A DNA stretch of 10,674 nucleotides, taken from Ignavibacteriota bacterium (lineage in GTDB: Bacteria; Bacteroidota; Ignavibacteria; Tepidaquicellales; Tepidaquicellaceae). The stretch lies in assembly GCA_003135995.1 (NCBI GenBank), contig PNBM01000241.1:10629-21302 (forward strand), given 5' to 3'. Positions 1 through 5,333 of this stretch are shown here, piece after piece. A program made the translations under genes and the position numbers. Under the pieces are notes generated by a model. That model worked only from the letters and a program-made list of their open reading frames with translations. It had not been told where the DNA came from and did no database searches. Within the stretch, counting starts at the first letter, position 1; every line of letters starts with the position of its first letter.

Positions 1-340
1 TCTAAGAAGTAAAATTCTAAATTTTGATAGAGAACATTTCTTAGTCATGAGTTTTGATGTCAGAAATAAATTAATCTCTATTGATGAAGTTTCATCCGGT
101 ACGCTAACCGCCAGCCTGGTACACCCAAGAGAAACTTTTGAATCGGCTATTAGAAATCACGCGGCACAGATAATTGTCGGGCATAACCATCCCTCTCATG
201 ATGCTGAACCATCTGAAGATGATATTAAAATAACCAAACGTCTATATGATGCTGGTAAAATAATGGGTATTGAATTAATAGACCATATTATAGTCACGAA
301 AACCGAATATACGTCATTAAAAAATAAAGGAATAATCTAA
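1..340 (+). CDS. radC: RadC-like JAB/MPN-domain protein, 5' end cut off by the window
   Basis: This is the C-terminal JAB (JAMM) domain of a RadC-family protein. The metal-binding motif is complete: GHNHPSHDAEPSEDD gives H-x-H, seven residues, S, two residues, D. It is followed by the family's typical 'T-K-R-L-Y-D-A-G-K-I-M-G-I-E-L-I-D-H-I-I-V' tail. The ATG at 47 is not the real start: the same frame is open back to base 2 and reads LRSKILNFDREHFLVM, which fits the part of RadC just upstream, including a Glu in the position of the JAMM glutamate. The gene therefore begins outside the window. RadC-like proteins are common on mobile elements, where their role is not established; a DNA-repair role is doubtful. 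The stop at 338-340 lies directly against the ribosome site of the next gene, so the two are probably co-transcribed. Confidence 0.88.
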   Translation, partial: LRSKILNFDREHFLVMSFDVRNKLISIDEVSSGTLTASLVHPRETFESAIRNHAAQIIVGHNHPSHDAEPSEDDIKITKRLYDAGKIMGIELIDHIIVTKTEYTSLKNKGII

Positions 341-892: not shown

Positions 893-1549
893 TTGATAGT
901 AGAATCTAAAAAAATCGTCAAAATTGACGAATTAGCTTATTTAGTACCTCGAAACGCAGGAGCTACCTTTAGTCAACTATGGCACATATTTTATTATACA
1001 CGCCTTTTTAAGTATGTTAAGTACAATCATTACGCTCAGATTAAAACAAGTTTTAATAAAATTTGTACTTACGATAAATTAAAAGATCTATGTAATTTAG
1101 GCTATTTTAAAAGCCCGCAAGAAGGGGTTTATTGTGCGACCGATAAAGTTTTACCGATCTTAAAAGAAGCTGGATTTATTATAGAAACTTTACCGGCTGA
1201 ACCAATTGGCAAAGGTGATATTAATGAACTTAACAATACAAAAGTTTTTATTTCATTGATGAAGCAACAGTATTTTTATACTTTTTTATATCCTAATTTC
1301 GGTTATTTGATACCTGATGCTTTAATGGTTTTATTAGATAAAGAAAATAGAAAATATAAACTAACTTTTATCGAAGTGGAAGCAGAAAAACCTGACTGGG
1401 AAATTTATATTGAAAACAAAAAAAATAATTATTTAAAATTAGCTAAAGATATCCGGTTTTACGAAGAGTGGAAAAAGTATTGCGAACTTTTAAAATTACC
1501 AAAGCCTGATTTTAATATTAAATTTAATTATAAAATTTACAAATTATAA
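893..1549 (+). CDS. replication-relaxation-family-like protein (winged helix plus nuclease-fold-like domain)
   Basis: The N-terminal half (about 30-95) looks like a winged-helix DNA-binding region: helices around SFNKICTYDKLKDLCNLGYF, then a strand pair. The C-terminal half has the pattern P141-D142, then F-I-E161-V-E163, then K176/K177 and Y180. This resembles the restriction-endonuclease-like core of replication-relaxation (Replic_Relax) proteins found on conjugative plasmids and integrative elements of Gram-positive bacteria. Such proteins are implicated in plasmid replication or mobilisation; their exact reaction is not settled. An in-frame TAA at 887-889 leaves TTG at 893 as the only ordinary start, with no Shine-Dalgarno. 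It is the first gene of a four-gene operon and its stop touches the next ATG. The family call rests on layout and motifs only. Confidence 0.6.
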   Translation: MIVESKKIVKIDELAYLVPRNAGATFSQLWHIFYYTRLFKYVKYNHYAQIKTSFNKICTYDKLKDLCNLGYFKSPQEGVYCATDKVLPILKEAGFIIETLPAEPIGKGDINELNNTKVFISLMKQQYFYTFLYPNFGYLIPDALMVLLDKENRKYKLTFIEVEAEKPDWEIYIENKKNNYLKLAKDIRFYEEWKKYCELLKLPKPDFNIKFNYKIYKL

Positions 1550-2368
1550 ATGAATTACTTCAATGAAGAATATTCGATAGGTAAAAAAGTTTTATATTCT
1601 TTTTTAGGAATGATTTTTTTATTGTCGCTATTATTTCAGATACATTTATTTAAGGTTCTTAACGAAGTTGTATCTGGTTTGAAAAAAGTTATTTATCTTT
1701 TTGTTATCTGTATTGTTTTTATAGTTTTATTATTAACCGTCTTTCATTTTTTTGTAATTCTAATTGCTGTTTTTCGTTTATTATTTGATTTATTGTTAAG
1801 CTTTTTTGAATATGTAAGAAATATCAAAATACATTACCGGCATTTTATTAACACTTTGGCTTTAATTTGGAATAATAGAAATAAATTTCCTTATTCTATT
1901 TTTGGAGGGTTCTATTTTTATTTAAGATTAAGAACTAAAGTACTTGGTTTTTTATTCCTTTTTGCATTTTGTTTTTTAATATTTGTTAAGTGTTATGATT
2001 ATAACAAGAATTATCATAGAACATATTGGAAAGTGGAATTTTTTCCTGGACAAGATAACGGAAGATATACTTTTTTACCAAATAAATATTATACAATTCA
2101 TGCTGAAGATAGGGTAAGTGATGTAATTATTAATAAAATATTATATGAGATTGATTATCGTAATCCTTTACCTCGAACTTGGAATATAATTTATAGTGAT
2201 ACAGCTACTTTTTGTTTAGGTTTATATTATGATCCAGTTAAAAATGCTTATTCGGCTCAATCATTTGAAATTTGGGAAGATAAAAAGGATGGTCCAACTT
2301 TAGATACAAATTATTTTATGACACTTTTGCCATTAAAAACTAATTTTTCTAAATATCTTAAAAAATAA
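1550..2368 (+). CDS. multi-pass membrane protein, unknown function
   Basis: I do not recognise a family. The N-terminal half is strongly hydrophobic: a segment at about 14-34, a long stretch at about 45-80 that could hold one or two passes, and another at about 129-147. After that comes a soluble region of about 120 residues (WKVEFFPGQDNGRYTFLPNK and onward), rich in Tyr and Asp, probably beta-structured. The ATG follows the previous stop with no gap (TAA then ATG) and has no ribosome site, so translation is probably coupled. Its stop overlaps the next ATG by one base (TAATG). Its place between a relaxation-type protein and a coupling ATPase suggests a membrane partner of the transfer apparatus, which is inference. 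Confidence 0.7.
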   Translation: MNYFNEEYSIGKKVLYSFLGMIFLLSLLFQIHLFKVLNEVVSGLKKVIYLFVICIVFIVLLLTVFHFFVILIAVFRLLFDLLLSFFEYVRNIKIHYRHFINTLALIWNNRNKFPYSIFGGFYFYLRLRTKVLGFLFLFAFCFLIFVKCYDYNKNYHRTYWKVEFFPGQDNGRYTFLPNKYYTIHAEDRVSDVIINKILYEIDYRNPLPRTWNIIYSDTATFCLGLYYDPVKNAYSAQSFEIWEDKKDGPTLDTNYFMTLLPLKTNFSKYLKK

Positions 2369-3450
2369 TGGGTAAATTTATTTTATTTGTAGGTGGTGTT
2401 ATATTCATTTTTTATATTACTATTGGTGTATTTTTTGTTGCTGAAATATCATGGATAGATACCTCTTTTTTTGTTAAAGATCATTTCTGGTTATGGTCTT
2501 TATTAATTTGCGGTTCTTTGGCTTTACTTTTCTTTTATGCTTCAGGTAAATCATATAAAGACTTAAAAATAAACGAATCATTTTTTTCTCAAGCAATGAT
2601 TGAAAATAAAATATCTTTTCAAAATAATAATTCTATTCCATCAAAAAATAAAGGAGGTTCTCATATGTCTATAATTAAAAAAGAAAATGAAGAAATCACA
2701 GAATTTGATTTATCTAAATTAACCATGGAATCATTGGTCAAAAAAATGGCTTTTGAAATGACCAAACCTGGTCCGGTGTTTTTTAAAGGTTGGGGAAATA
2801 ATAGGCTCAGATTAGATGTTGAACGGGTACAAATCATAAAAAATTATATTGATTCTATCCGGGATACAGGTGAATCATTAATGCAACTTCAATCTGATGC
2901 TATTTTGAGTTATTCTAAGATTAAAGCTCTTACGGAAATAAAGCGAACTGAACTTAAAAAGCAATTACATACTTCTTTAAAAGAACTTAATTTTATAGAT
3001 AAAGAATTTGAACACAAAATTGAATTAATGAGATTGGAAAGAGAAAATATCGCCGAAGATATTAAATTTAAGCGTGCCCAACGTGAAAAAATAGAAACTG
3101 AAAATATAGTAACGCATCTTAAAGCTGAAGCAGAATATAAGTTGATCATTGCTAAAAGTAAAAAAGAAAAGCAGATTGCTTATATATTGGCAGAAGCGGT
3201 TAAATCTTATAAAGATTTACCGAATGTTTTAAAATCTTATGTGGCTGTACAATTAGGGAGTGATAATTCTCAAAACCCAAGTGTTGATATGGAATTACAA
3301 GATCAATTAAAAGACTATGTAATTAGAAAACATAAAGCCGAAACTGAAATGTTGGAATACAAGGCCGATGAGAATAAAGCTTTAACAGATACTACGAAAG
3401 TAAAATTGGAAAGAGAAAAGAAAAAATATTTAAAAAATGACAACTTATAA
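2368..3450 (+). CDS. membrane-anchored coiled-coil protein with possible second internal start
   Basis: Two transmembrane segments lie at the N-terminus (about 4-26 and 40-57), followed by a polar linker up to residue 99. From residue 100 the protein is soluble and mostly helical. A conserved-looking patch, 'FEMTKPGPVFFKGWGNNRLRL', precedes about 200 residues dense in Lys, Glu, Leu and Ile with few prolines, i.e. a long coiled coil. No family recognised. The ATG at 2368 overlaps the previous stop and lacks a ribosome site. Inside the gene, AAGGAGGT at 2651-2658 lies six bases before an in-frame ATG at 2665 (Met100), which would give a 261-residue soluble form. The 3' end overlaps the ATPase gene by 14 bases. 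It may anchor or assemble the ATPase, whose own sequence lacks a membrane segment. Confidence 0.75.
   Translation: MGKFILFVGGVIFIFYITIGVFFVAEISWIDTSFFVKDHFWLWSLLICGSLALLFFYASGKSYKDLKINESFFSQAMIENKISFQNNNSIPSKNKGGSHMSIIKKENEEITEFDLSKLTMESLVKKMAFEMTKPGPVFFKGWGNNRLRLDVERVQIIKNYIDSIRDTGESLMQLQSDAILSYSKIKALTEIKRTELKKQLHTSLKELNFIDKEFEHKIELMRLERENIAEDIKFKRAQREKIETENIVTHLKAEAEYKLIIAKSKKEKQIAYILAEAVKSYKDLPNVLKSYVAVQLGSDNSQNPSVDMELQDQLKDYVIRKHKAETEMLEYKADENKALTDTTKVKLEREKKKYLKNDNL
2651..2667 (+). promoter_or_regulatory. internal Shine-Dalgarno and in-frame ATG (Met100)
   Basis: AAGGAGGT (2651-2658), then a six-base spacer, then ATG at 2665, in frame with the gene starting at 2368. It is the strongest ribosome site in the whole 893-4681 operon; the other starts there have none or a weak one. 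It falls exactly at the border between the membrane/linker part and the soluble coiled-coil part. Confidence 0.65.
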
Positions 3451-4681
3451 TCTTAGTTTTGGTTTTTTAGCAGGAGATTTAAAACAGGAATTACCGGAAT
3501 TTTGGGACATTAAAGATAGATTTGAACATTCCTATCTTGTAGGCAAAACCGGTATGGGAAAATCATCCCTTCTTGAACACATGGCCTCTTATGATATAGA
3601 CCAAAACCTAGCCGTTATTTTTATTGATCCCAAAGGAGAAAGTTGTAAAAAGCTTTATCATCTAACCAAAGACAAATCCCGGATTCTTTATATTTCTATT
3701 GAAAGCCCGACCGTTATTAATCCTTTAAATAAAGAAGGATATAGAATAGATAATCTTATTCAAGAGTTTATTCAGATACTTGATGTTTTAATAACCTTAA
3801 CAGCATCTAACCCGGAAAGTACGGTGTTAATGAGAGAAATCATTAACCGGGCTATGCATTCAATTACCAGAGAGCAAGATAAGAATCTTGATTACTTAAC
3901 TAAATTTCTTCTCTATAGTGATGTCCGAAGCCAATTAAAAAATACCTTGCCAGCAGGTAGTGACTTAAGAAAATATTGGGAGGAGTTTGATGGTATCAAA
4001 GGTAAAATTCCCAGGAATAACCAAAAAATAGAATGTGCCCAAAGATTAGCTTCACGTTTAATCGAAATTTCTACTGGAGAGATGAAAAATTTCGTTATTG
4101 GGAAAAATGAATTAAACATTTCTAATATTGTAGAAAAAAATAAAGTAGTTTTAGTTGATACTTCTCGTATGAATCGTAATAGCCGTATTTATTTAACTAA
4201 CCTTATTGTGTATGCTGTACTTTCTTATTGCGAATTTGCTGATAAAAAAAATAATCCCCTGATGGTCTATGTTGACGAATTTCAAATAGTGGTTAGTAGT
4301 TTATTTTCCGAACTGTTAGCTAGAAGCAGAAGCTCTAAAGTCGGTTTTACATTATCACATCAAAACTTTCAACAGATTCCTAAAACTATTTTAGGCTCTA
4401 TTTTTGGTAATGTTGGTACTTCAATTTGTTTTAGGTGTGGTGATGAAGAAGCCAGAAGATTTGCACCAATCTTTAATATTAAATCGAATGAATTATTTAA
4501 TCTTCCTAAATACCAAGCCTGGGTGAGAATTGGTACAAATAATACTTTAATTGAAACATACCCTCCAAAATTAACTGACGTACCAGCAATAGATATTCCA
4601 AAAATTGAGCTAACACAAGCCAAAATTCCGTTTACGCAAGAAGATTTTAACTTCCTAGGTGATAAATGGATAAATTTTTGA
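3437..4681 (+). CDS. VirD4/TraD-type coupling ATPase, minimal form without membrane anchor
   Basis: This is a P-loop ATPase of the type IV coupling protein group, which delivers DNA-protein complexes to a type IV secretion channel. Walker A is GKTGMGKS (36-43). It is followed by 'IFIDPKGES', typical of this group. Walker B is LMVYVDEFQ (275-283, Asp280-Glu281), then 'LLARSRSSKVGFTLSHQNFQQIP' with Gln309 in the position of the TraD/VirD4 glutamine motif. At 414 residues it is shorter than the usual 500-700: it starts almost at the ATPase core, with neither the N-terminal membrane segments nor an obvious all-alpha domain, although part of the latter may lie at about 110-200. The gene overlaps the preceding membrane/coiled-coil gene by 14 bases, so the anchor may be supplied by that partner. 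The stop is TGA, which also forms part of the next promoter. Confidence 0.88.
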   Translation: MTTYNLSFGFLAGDLKQELPEFWDIKDRFEHSYLVGKTGMGKSSLLEHMASYDIDQNLAVIFIDPKGESCKKLYHLTKDKSRILYISIESPTVINPLNKEGYRIDNLIQEFIQILDVLITLTASNPESTVLMREIINRAMHSITREQDKNLDYLTKFLLYSDVRSQLKNTLPAGSDLRKYWEEFDGIKGKIPRNNQKIECAQRLASRLIEISTGEMKNFVIGKNELNISNIVEKNKVVLVDTSRMNRNSRIYLTNLIVYAVLSYCEFADKKNNPLMVYVDEFQIVVSSLFSELLARSRSSKVGFTLSHQNFQQIPKTILGSIFGNVGTSICFRCGDEEARRFAPIFNIKSNELFNLPKYQAWVRIGTNNTLIETYPPKLTDVPAIDIPKIELTQAKIPFTQEDFNFLGDKWINF

Positions 4682-4687
4682 TATAAT
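4679..4687 (+). promoter_or_regulatory. extended -10 promoter overlapping the ATPase stop codon
   Basis: TGATATAAT gives a perfect TGn extended -10 plus consensus TATAAT. The TGA is also the stop codon of the coupling ATPase gene. No clear -35 is visible, as is usual for extended -10 promoters. Transcription would begin near 4694, at the 5' edge of the structured RNA. Confidence 0.65.
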
Positions 4688-4693
4688 AGTCTG

Positions 4694-4945
4694 AGTAAGC
4701 CGTGGTAAATGGGCAAAAGTCTATTTGTTAATGGTTATTGTTATCTATATCCAATCGTCCGGCTCGTTAGACACACCATCTAATAGAGTGGGTAACGGTA
4801 ATCCGTTTAGTTAGAGAAGATATAGAGACGACCTCAGTAATCATTGATCTGATATAAGAGTCAGGTCGTAAAACAAACTTTTATACGGATTTGCAACTTG
4901 TTATTAAAATTGCAAAGGGGTTAGTACTAAACTGACCCTTTTGTT
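4694..4945 (+). ncRNA. candidate structured non-coding RNA, about 250 nt, family not recognised
   Basis: The region has no coding frame worth naming but many long-range complements. P1: CCGT (4700-4703) with ACGG (4885-4888), AAAAG (4715-4719) with CTTTT (4878-4882), and TTTGTT (4724-4729) with AACAAA (4872-4877). Inside P1, P2 is TCTATATC (4744-4751) with GATATAGA (4819-4826), capped by TTAGA/TCTAA (4767-4771/4779-4783) and ACGG/CCGT (4795-4798/4803-4806). P3 is ACGACCT (4828-4834) with AGGTCGT (4863-4869). P1, P2 and P3 form a three-way junction, one base separating P2 from P3. A hairpin TTTGCAA/TTGCAAA (4890-4896/4910-4916) and a terminator follow. It has its own promoter at 4679. I do not recognise it as RNase P RNA, tmRNA, SRP RNA or a known riboswitch. 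It could act in trans or control the downstream genes. Confidence 0.6.
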
Positions 4946-4952
4946 TTTTTTT
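4914..4952 (+). terminator. intrinsic terminator of the structured RNA
   Basis: AAAGGG, a bulged G and TTAGT (4914-4925) pair with ACTGACCCTTT (4931-4941) over the loop ACTAA, and a nine-base T run follows (4944-4952). Its first bases overlap the preceding TTTGCAA/TTGCAAA hairpin, so the two compete. The T run leads straight into the next extended -10. Confidence 0.8.
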
Positions 4953-4953
4953 A

Positions 4954-4962
4954 TGATATACT
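4954..4962 (+). promoter_or_regulatory. extended -10 promoter for the interrupted small gene
   Basis: TGATATACT is an extended -10 (TGn plus TATACT). It directly follows the T run of the upstream terminator. The junction from CTTTTG and the T run to TATACTAA closely resembles the one at 5418-5440, so the same terminator-to-promoter arrangement is used twice. Confidence 0.55.
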
Positions 4963-5013
4963 AAGTAAGTACATACTTATATTTTAAATTATAATTAGTA
5001 TCTAATTTAAAAT
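4962..5013. repeat. two inverted repeats in the leader of the interrupted gene
   Basis: TAAGTA/TACTTA (4962-4967/4974-4979) overlaps the expected transcription start. ATTTTAAATTA/TAATTTAAAAT (4981-4991/5003-5013) is a perfect 11-bp inverted repeat ending two bases before the ATG at 5016. The first could be an operator; the second could fold in RNA and mask the start. Both are AT-only or nearly so, which raises the chance of coincidence. Confidence 0.45.
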
Positions 5014-5015
5014 TT

Positions 5016-5333
5016 ATGAAAGAGTATATTTCTATAAATTCTAAGGAAAAAATAAAAGACAGCAAATCTTATTTAAATAAGGCAGTGAAAGATCTTTTGG
5101 CAATTCAAATAGAACGAATGAAAGTTAGAGAAAATAATATTTTCTTGAAAAATGTTGATAAGTATTATGATTATTTGCCGACTGATTTTTAAGATCGTCT
5201 TTCTATTTATTTTGACAATAATCTTGATCAAGATTCTCGTTTGGGGCGAGAACTAGATAAAGAATTAAAAGATATTATTAAGAAAAAAGATGATAAAGCC
5301 GTTTTAGCTGATTATGAAATTATTGATGGCTAG
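5016..5333 (+). pseudogene. small charged protein gene interrupted by an in-frame TAA
   Basis: From ATG at 5016 the frame codes 58 residues (MKEYISINSKEKIKDSKSYL and onward, rich in Lys, Glu and Ile) and stops at TAA 5190-5192. The same frame then continues for 46 coding-looking residues (DRLSIYFDNNLDQDSRLGRE, then a Lys/Asp/Glu-rich helix) to TAG at 5331-5333. A single substitution, for example from CAA, AAA or GAA, would join the parts into one protein of about 105 residues, mostly helical and soluble. After the TAG the frame runs 14 more codons to TAA 5376-5378. No family recognised; small antitoxin-like or DNA-binding proteins have this make-up. Reading it as a decayed gene is favoured over recoding, because neighbouring genes use TAA, TAG and TGA as normal stops. 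The 58-residue product alone may still be made. Confidence 0.5.

Follow-up and report, generated by a model that had tools for sequence, protein, structure and literature searches.

A pseudoknotted RNA family outside Rfam, predicted beside a HerA/TrwB/TraD-like ATPase and a DnaG-like protein on mobile elements of Ignavibacteria and relatives

GOLLD and ROOL are ornate bacterial RNAs of unsettled role that occur on phages or mobile elements, and in the core of group I introns the 5' strand of P3 is followed by an inner arm, a P7-like 5' strand, the 3' strand of P3 and a P7-like 3' strand. In the cited reports, GOLLD and ROOL are described as large structured RNAs (PMC12286853), the ToxI and CptI antitoxins of type III toxin-antitoxin (TA) systems as containing pseudoknots (PMC5086642, PMC12373285), the packaging RNA (pRNA) of phi29 as working with a DNA-translocating ATPase (PMC6765105) and RAGATH-18-derived RNAs as belonging to TnpB (PMC11061315). 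The DNA analysed here is a stretch of 10,674 nt from an Ignavibacteriota bacterium (the window), in which positions 4679-4952 have the layout of an RNA gene, with an extended -10, about 200 folded nt and an intrinsic terminator (Table 1).

Table 1. Coordinates of the RNA gene, its structural elements and the neighbouring genes in the window
Feature	Position	Strand	Remarks
RadC-like gene	2..340	+	cut by window edge
Conserved module protein, tentatively wHTH + nuclease-like	893..1549	+	
TM1, putative membrane protein	1550..2368	+	hydrophobic by eye
TM2, putative membrane/coiled protein	2368..3450	+	by eye
HerA/TrwB/TraD-like ATPase, 414 aa	3437..4681	+	
Extended -10 promoter TGATATAAT, predicted	4679..4687	+	TGA shared with ATPase stop codon
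RNA gene, predicted	4694..4952	+	start near 4694 to terminator end; both transcript ends predicted
P1 5' strand, closing helix	4697..4703	+	best partner in the window 4885-4894, bulged
P2 hairpin	4704..4729	+	loop region conserved, GGGCA..AGUCC-like
P3 5' strand	4730..4737	+	partner 4838-4845
P4 5' strand	4746..4751	+	partner 4819-4824; arm bears ACGGUAAUCCGU at 4795-4806
Pseudoknot 5' strand ACGACCU	4828..4834	+	partner AGGUCGU 4863-4869; just 5' of P3 3' strand
GAGUCA, pseudoknot 3' strand and conserved AAAACAAACUUU stretch	4858..4881	+	AAAACAAACUUU stretch presumed unpaired
Intrinsic terminator	4912..4952	+	14-bp stem 4912-4944, nine T 4944-4952
Second extended -10-like site TGATATACT	4954..4962	+	directly 3' of terminator
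58-aa ORF between RNA and DnaG-like gene	5016..5192	+	no family match
DnaG-like protein, 269 aa	5468..6277	+	Toprim catalytic residues and zinc Cys lost

The initial annotation had proposed an extended -10, a non-coding stretch and a terminator with a nine-T run at this site, and each of these is present, the stretch of about 200 bases after the -10 being devoid of a long ORF. The -35 hexamer (GTGATA) is weak, which would make this an extended -10 promoter. Since promoter-like sites in the region (5) are not above the number in shuffled sequences (5.7), the predicted promoter rests on its conservation across loci. Specifically, in 20 ATPase-adjacent loci, among them two near-duplicate pairs (L133/L137 and L139/L116), the start of the RNA's -10 falls at -16 to +19, counted from where the ATPase stop codon ends, and the stop codon lies inside the hexamer in 13 (12 computed and L123 read from the locus sequence); this count leaves out L009, L130, L131 and L163, where genes lie between ATPase and RNA. 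A second extended -10-like site is found within 330 nt past the RNA core in 21 of 25 loci, within 100 nt in 20 of these, and was not found in L162b, L163, L164 and L140; as a control, 1250 random 200-nt stretches drawn from these loci contain such a site in 22% of cases. Because of the predicted promoter at the ATPase stop codon and the second -10-like site after the core, the RNA is most likely a transcript of its own. ARAGORN detected no tRNA or tmRNA gene in the window, and no tandem repeats were found in window positions 4600-5050.

Concerning the fold, a 282-nt stretch reaches -82.3 kcal/mol, compared with -57.3 ± 4.5 in 200 dinucleotide shuffles, none of which was as low (z = -5.5). Comparison of homologues establishes the predicted architecture P1[P2][P3[P4]] together with a pseudoknot; the 5' strand of the latter directly adjoins the P3 3' strand. 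The closing stem around a three-way junction that the initial annotation had drawn was a fair first approximation. Homologues back the closing P1, the hairpin P2, the arm P3/P4 and also the pseudoknot, which it had missed. In the sequence alignment P1 finds its partner at 4893-4899, where 2 of the 7 window pairs fail, and the single-sequence minimum-energy structure forms a local hairpin instead, taking up part of the pseudoknot 3' strand.

Two types of the RNA, A and B, were aligned. The pairing figures that follow count cells and not independent events, several copies being close relatives. In the first type-A alignment (seven members, MAFFT, sequence-only), 85.5% of 241 cells pair, against 67.9% after shuffling and 31-42% when the strands are slid, and two-sided changes occur in 26 of 35 pairs. 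Type B (11 members) is diverged and has the same topology, supported by its separate alignment: 84.6% of 344 cells pair versus 73.7% in shuffles, two-sided changes affect 23 of 32 pairs, and shifting the strands by one column leaves 54% pairing. A covariance model built on the nested type-A helices with the pseudoknot left out (R2) was run on 303 class genomes and retrieved 13 full copies from 9 of these; six of the copies, absent from the model, score 100-127 bits. In the alignment of these 13 copies (A7), whose nested pairs lean on R2, 92.2% of 386 cells pair (73.9% shuffled, 26-38% slid), with two-sided changes in 26 of 30 pairs; for the pseudoknot, 95.6% of the cells pair and 5 of 7 pairs show two-sided changes. 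The observed covariation score was reached by none of 500 shuffles in each of the three alignments, so that covariation, which the initial annotation had named as a test, is strong in both types. After sliding, 26-42% of cells pair in type A and no more than 54% in type B, compared with 85-92% observed, a comparison that favours the observed pairing because individual members of these alignments also served to name the helices. G-U cells (33) outnumber A-C/C-A cells (11) in A7, which fits folding of the plus strand as RNA. A single-sequence topology search was less decisive than the alignments, only 8 of 22 sequences scoring above at least 39 of 40 shuffles; one of the eight, L119, has helices that differ from those proposed, and for several others the best solution is a different pairing.

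Searches against Rfam 15 gave no match at gathering score on the window or on eight further loci. With E ≤ 5, four matches appeared on window positions 4600-5020, all far below gathering, and none at the RNA of L117, L121 and L123, in agreement with the initial annotation, which could place the RNA in no known family. A group I intron was considered and set aside, having no Rfam covariance match at gathering (window and eight loci) or at E ≤ 5 (window, L117, L121, L123), and the possession of a promoter and a terminator of its own would also make an intron unlikely. By these comparisons the RNA almost certainly represents a new family outside Rfam 15, and that the family is real we hold to be at least overwhelmingly probable. 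Searches of open-licence full-text papers (PMC, outside which lie most subscription journals and preprints) gave no description of it.

Besides the copy on contig C157, the genome of the window has two partial paralogues, located at the ends of C231 and C379, and other genomes were reached via sequence patterns and ATPase homologues; all 12 newly read ATPase loci have the RNA just downstream (by eye). Type A comprises the window, L019, L088, L087, L011, L013 and L015, with the core GAGUUA-[pseudoknot]-UAAAACAAACUU or close variants, and its carriers include the Ignavibacteria MAGs JAIOIK010000017.1 and JAGQWH010000136.1 and the Bacteroidetes MAG JAFDZO010000009.1. Type B mostly has UGUCC/GGACA pseudoknots and counts seven IMG/VR contigs among its members. 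The covariance models R1 and R2 do not cross-detect the two types, which are thus joined, as a proposal, through position and topology only. R1 matched L122, absent from that model, at E = 0.0026 and missed the RNA in L139 (a G322 stretch); its match in G062 (E = 0.005) is a candidate only. L115 and L116 (G322, G229) were assigned by eye, and alignment A3 was built leaving out these two, L122 and L016 (a near-duplicate of L111). BLASTN against plasmids and phages gave no match, and tblastn with the ATPase found relatives of 22-25% identity in four plasmids and none in phages. A scan of viral contigs with the pattern TTAGACACACCANCTAA yielded 37 raw stretches. Pseudoknot-flank pattern matches in viral contigs were rejected, other features of the RNA being absent; the match in L125 lies inside a long ORF, and the other four of that scan are already-known contigs. 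One of four genome-contig matches, L089 (Schlesneria), has none of the other features and was likewise discarded. With a 17-mer pattern, 4 of 15 genome matches are the RNA (L079, L080, L082, L083).

The RNA lies in a recurring gene order, namely a homologue of the 893..1549 protein, TM1, TM2, ATPase, RNA and DnaG-like gene, with TM1 or TM2 unrecognised in some loci and the RNA genes oriented with the module. By comparison, this module is found on phage contigs, in proviruses and in integrated elements, all from Ignavibacteria and relatives. The idea raised by the initial annotation, an independently transcribed structured non-coding RNA of a mobile element, is supported, covariation being strong and no Rfam family matching at gathering score. 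Absent from that annotation were the pseudoknot, additional copies of the RNA, its type-B relatives in phages and the neighbouring DnaG-like gene. A homologue of the 893..1549 protein gave a weak match to PF13814 (Replic_Relax), below cut-off. The family has an invariant Pro-Asp and Glu-x-Glu and a near-invariant Lys, a pattern that we take to be reminiscent of PD-(D/E)XK nucleases; its confident structural model found no significant fold match in the PDB. ArdC and/or RadC lie upstream in many cellular loci, and neither was seen in the viral stretches examined. Homologues of the terminase small subunit follow the module in viral L118, L119, L121, L122, L126 and L128 and in provirus-like L129 (G007) and L136 (G311); several of these loci also have a large subunit and a gene that was called portal solely from its position. 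The terminase assignment was profile-tested on L128. Other neighbours were recorded along the way. Phage contig L128 has, divergently upstream (10749-12198), a CBASS-like pair of genes for a SMODS nucleotidyltransferase and a SLATT_4 membrane protein, with similar ORFs (by eye) in L126 (10405-11854). On the contig of the window, upstream of it, genes of restriction type (DNA methylase, ResIII helicases) lie 5' of ArdC and RadC (L006:191-7408, G000:C157), and in L118 and L120 a small CxxC protein, HNH-like by eye, sits between the RNA and the DnaG-like gene.

The ATPase was found at E ≤ 1e-60 in 16 of 391 class genomes, all of which carry the RNA (14 by model and 2 by eye, 12 of the 14 through copies that the models were built from or a near-duplicate). 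Even at 28-30% ATPase identity (L019) the RNA is present, and in six distant relatives (L095, L098, L099, L103, L020, L023) no such RNA was seen downstream by eye. ATPase relatives without adjoining RNA occur as L014 in G016 and L017 in G008, both genomes having the RNA elsewhere: G016 bears three copies apart from the ATPase, and G008 one copy 9.6 kb downstream of the ATPase and one on another contig. Genome G001 has two RNA copies and no detectable ATPase or DnaG-like gene, its RNA contigs ending just past the RNA. Two copies in G016 (C315) lie 5 kb apart and match each other over about 270 nt only, which is the RNA unit. The stretch shared by L161 and L162a includes the DnaG-like gene, and those shared by L165/L166 and by L163/L164 are Rhs-like by eye. 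Copies apart from the ATPase (L166, L165, L162, L164) are found near Rhs/YD-repeat-like genes or fragments (by eye), suggesting a shared insertion region. In C379 (L009:5333-6859) a reverse-strand gene of 365 aa stands between the ATPase stop and the RNA, and the ATPase 3' end is present a second time, as a fragment ahead of the promoter of the RNA.

The DnaG-like gene is present in 8 of 9 RNA-carrying genomes (the exception being G001) and in none of 9 RNA-free genomes hand-picked from the same family. Three RNA copies that have no ATPase beside them (L161, L162a and L164) are followed by this gene, which is truncated in L164. It does not come directly after the RNA in L162b or in L163, where it lies about 10.5 kb further on. 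The AlphaFold model of the protein (pLDDT 90.7) matches DnaG (2au3) in Foldseek with E = 1.4e-13. With catalytic columns set from motif spacing and predicted strand/helix borders, the Toprim Glu (EGxxD) is replaced by V, T, I, A or D in 49 of 49 aligned members, the first Asp of DxD is His in all 49, and only one of the 49 keeps at least three Cys within the N-terminal 95 residues, the CHC2 zinc Cys being lost. Since the Toprim Glu, the first Asp and the zinc Cys are gone, the protein is very probably not an active primase.

Our preferred reading, to which we give a probability of about 0.35, is that the RNA would be a trans-acting scaffold on which the inactive DnaG-like protein assembles into an RNP that serves to replicate or maintain the element. 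The RNA would be transcribed on its own and bound by the protein, which has kept the primase fold and lost the catalytic residues. Control or initiation of the element's replication or maintenance would fall to this complex, which might, as one example, recruit host replication proteins or sequester them; moving the element DNA would be the task of the ATPase and the membrane proteins. We rank this RNP highest because the pair of RNA and DnaG-like gene persists in three copies lacking an adjacent ATPase and because binding of RNA or of primers is plausible for a dead primase fold. It is unlikely, though conceivable, that a dead primase retained by phages and integrated elements and a dedicated pseudoknotted RNA would form a new class of RNP that starts or hijacks replication and is coupled to a membrane ATPase, with the RNA possibly as a built-in primer or replisome-loading scaffold. 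Next in rank, and improbable by itself, comes a regulatory RNA, a decoy or antisense acting in trans on element or prophage expression or on superinfection immunity; the predicted promoter and terminator, the site upstream of packaging genes in phages, the conserved AAAACAAACUU stretch and the extra copies elsewhere in the genome would suit such a regulator, but its pseudoknotted, covarying architecture exceeds what antisense pairing needs. Adjacency to the ATPase is about as strong as that to the DnaG-like gene, so the partner of the RNA could also be the ATPase. By analogy with phi29, the RNA would then bind this HerA/TrwB-like enzyme and help to move element or phage DNA, as the position of the -10 at the ATPase stop codon and the RNA in all 16 ATPase genomes would have it; we place this third and consider it doubtful, given the copies without adjacent ATPase, the distant relatives seen without the RNA (though L019 has it) and the terminase genes of phage L128, with which packaging should not need such an RNA.

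Three further explanations rank lower. That the unit matters as a folded DNA site for recombination or cargo insertion (attC-like), and not as RNA, is quite unlikely: it would fit the intervening genes that separate ATPase from RNA in C379/L009 and L163 (small ORFs in L130 and L131) or the two copies of L162, the C315 match ending near the RNA unit and the ATPase 3'-end piece in C379, but promoter and terminator are kept along with the fold, A-C cells are outnumbered threefold by G-U cells and the module proteins scanned gave no integrase-family match. An addiction or abortive-infection pair, in which the RNA would neutralise the DnaG-like protein, is very doubtful. A pseudoknotted RNA with a terminator and a same-strand protein gene recalls the type III TA layout described in PMC5086642, and RNA and DnaG-like gene co-occur in cargo regions too. 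Nevertheless, window positions 4600-5050 lack the tandem repeats of such an antitoxin, the protein has a DnaG fold with lost catalytic residues and is no ToxN/CptN/TenpN-type endoribonuclease, and the separate -10 after the terminator departs from the single-promoter TA and AbiF operons (PMC5086642, PMC12373285). Least probable of all is a leader, that is, an attenuator or riboswitch of the DnaG-like gene; a structured region with a terminator 5' of an ORF would look alike, yet most loci have the second -10-like site past the core, other genes intervene in the window, L118, L120 and L163, and some RNA copies have no adjoining DnaG-like ORF.

Compared with known systems, the RNA resembles GOLLD and ROOL in being ornate, of unsettled role and carried on phages and mobile elements, and differs in its size of about 200 nt, its different fold, its tie to a specific ATPase/DnaG-like module and the lack of an Rfam match. 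It follows the helix order of the group I intron core, from which it departs in having a predicted promoter and terminator of its own, a single inner arm where the intron has P4-P5 and P6, and a closing P1. With the type III TA RNAs and the AbiF RNA RCd22, as portrayed in PMC5086642 and PMC12373285, it shares a terminator-bearing RNA 5' of a same-strand protein gene, but it has no repeats, a single large fold, a DnaG-like neighbour and a separate promoter-like site for the protein gene. The likeness to phi29 pRNA, an RNA beside a DNA-translocating ATPase, is one of analogy, with no sequence or Rfam match, and phage L128 also encodes terminase subunits. Like the RAGATH-18-derived TnpB RNAs (PMC11061315), it is a conserved RNA downstream of a mobile-element gene, whereas the module proteins scanned here gave no TnpB or IscB match. 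The combination of an RNA with a primase relative that has lost catalysis did not come up in searches of open-licence PMC papers. Structured RNAs of mobile elements are known as a kind, and what appears new is a family of them with an unusual protein neighbour. Supported by covariation and lying outside Rfam 15, this family combines a pseudoknotted core with a usual genetic address, comes with two candidate protein partners and offers a way in to directly testing why mobile elements keep ornate RNAs.
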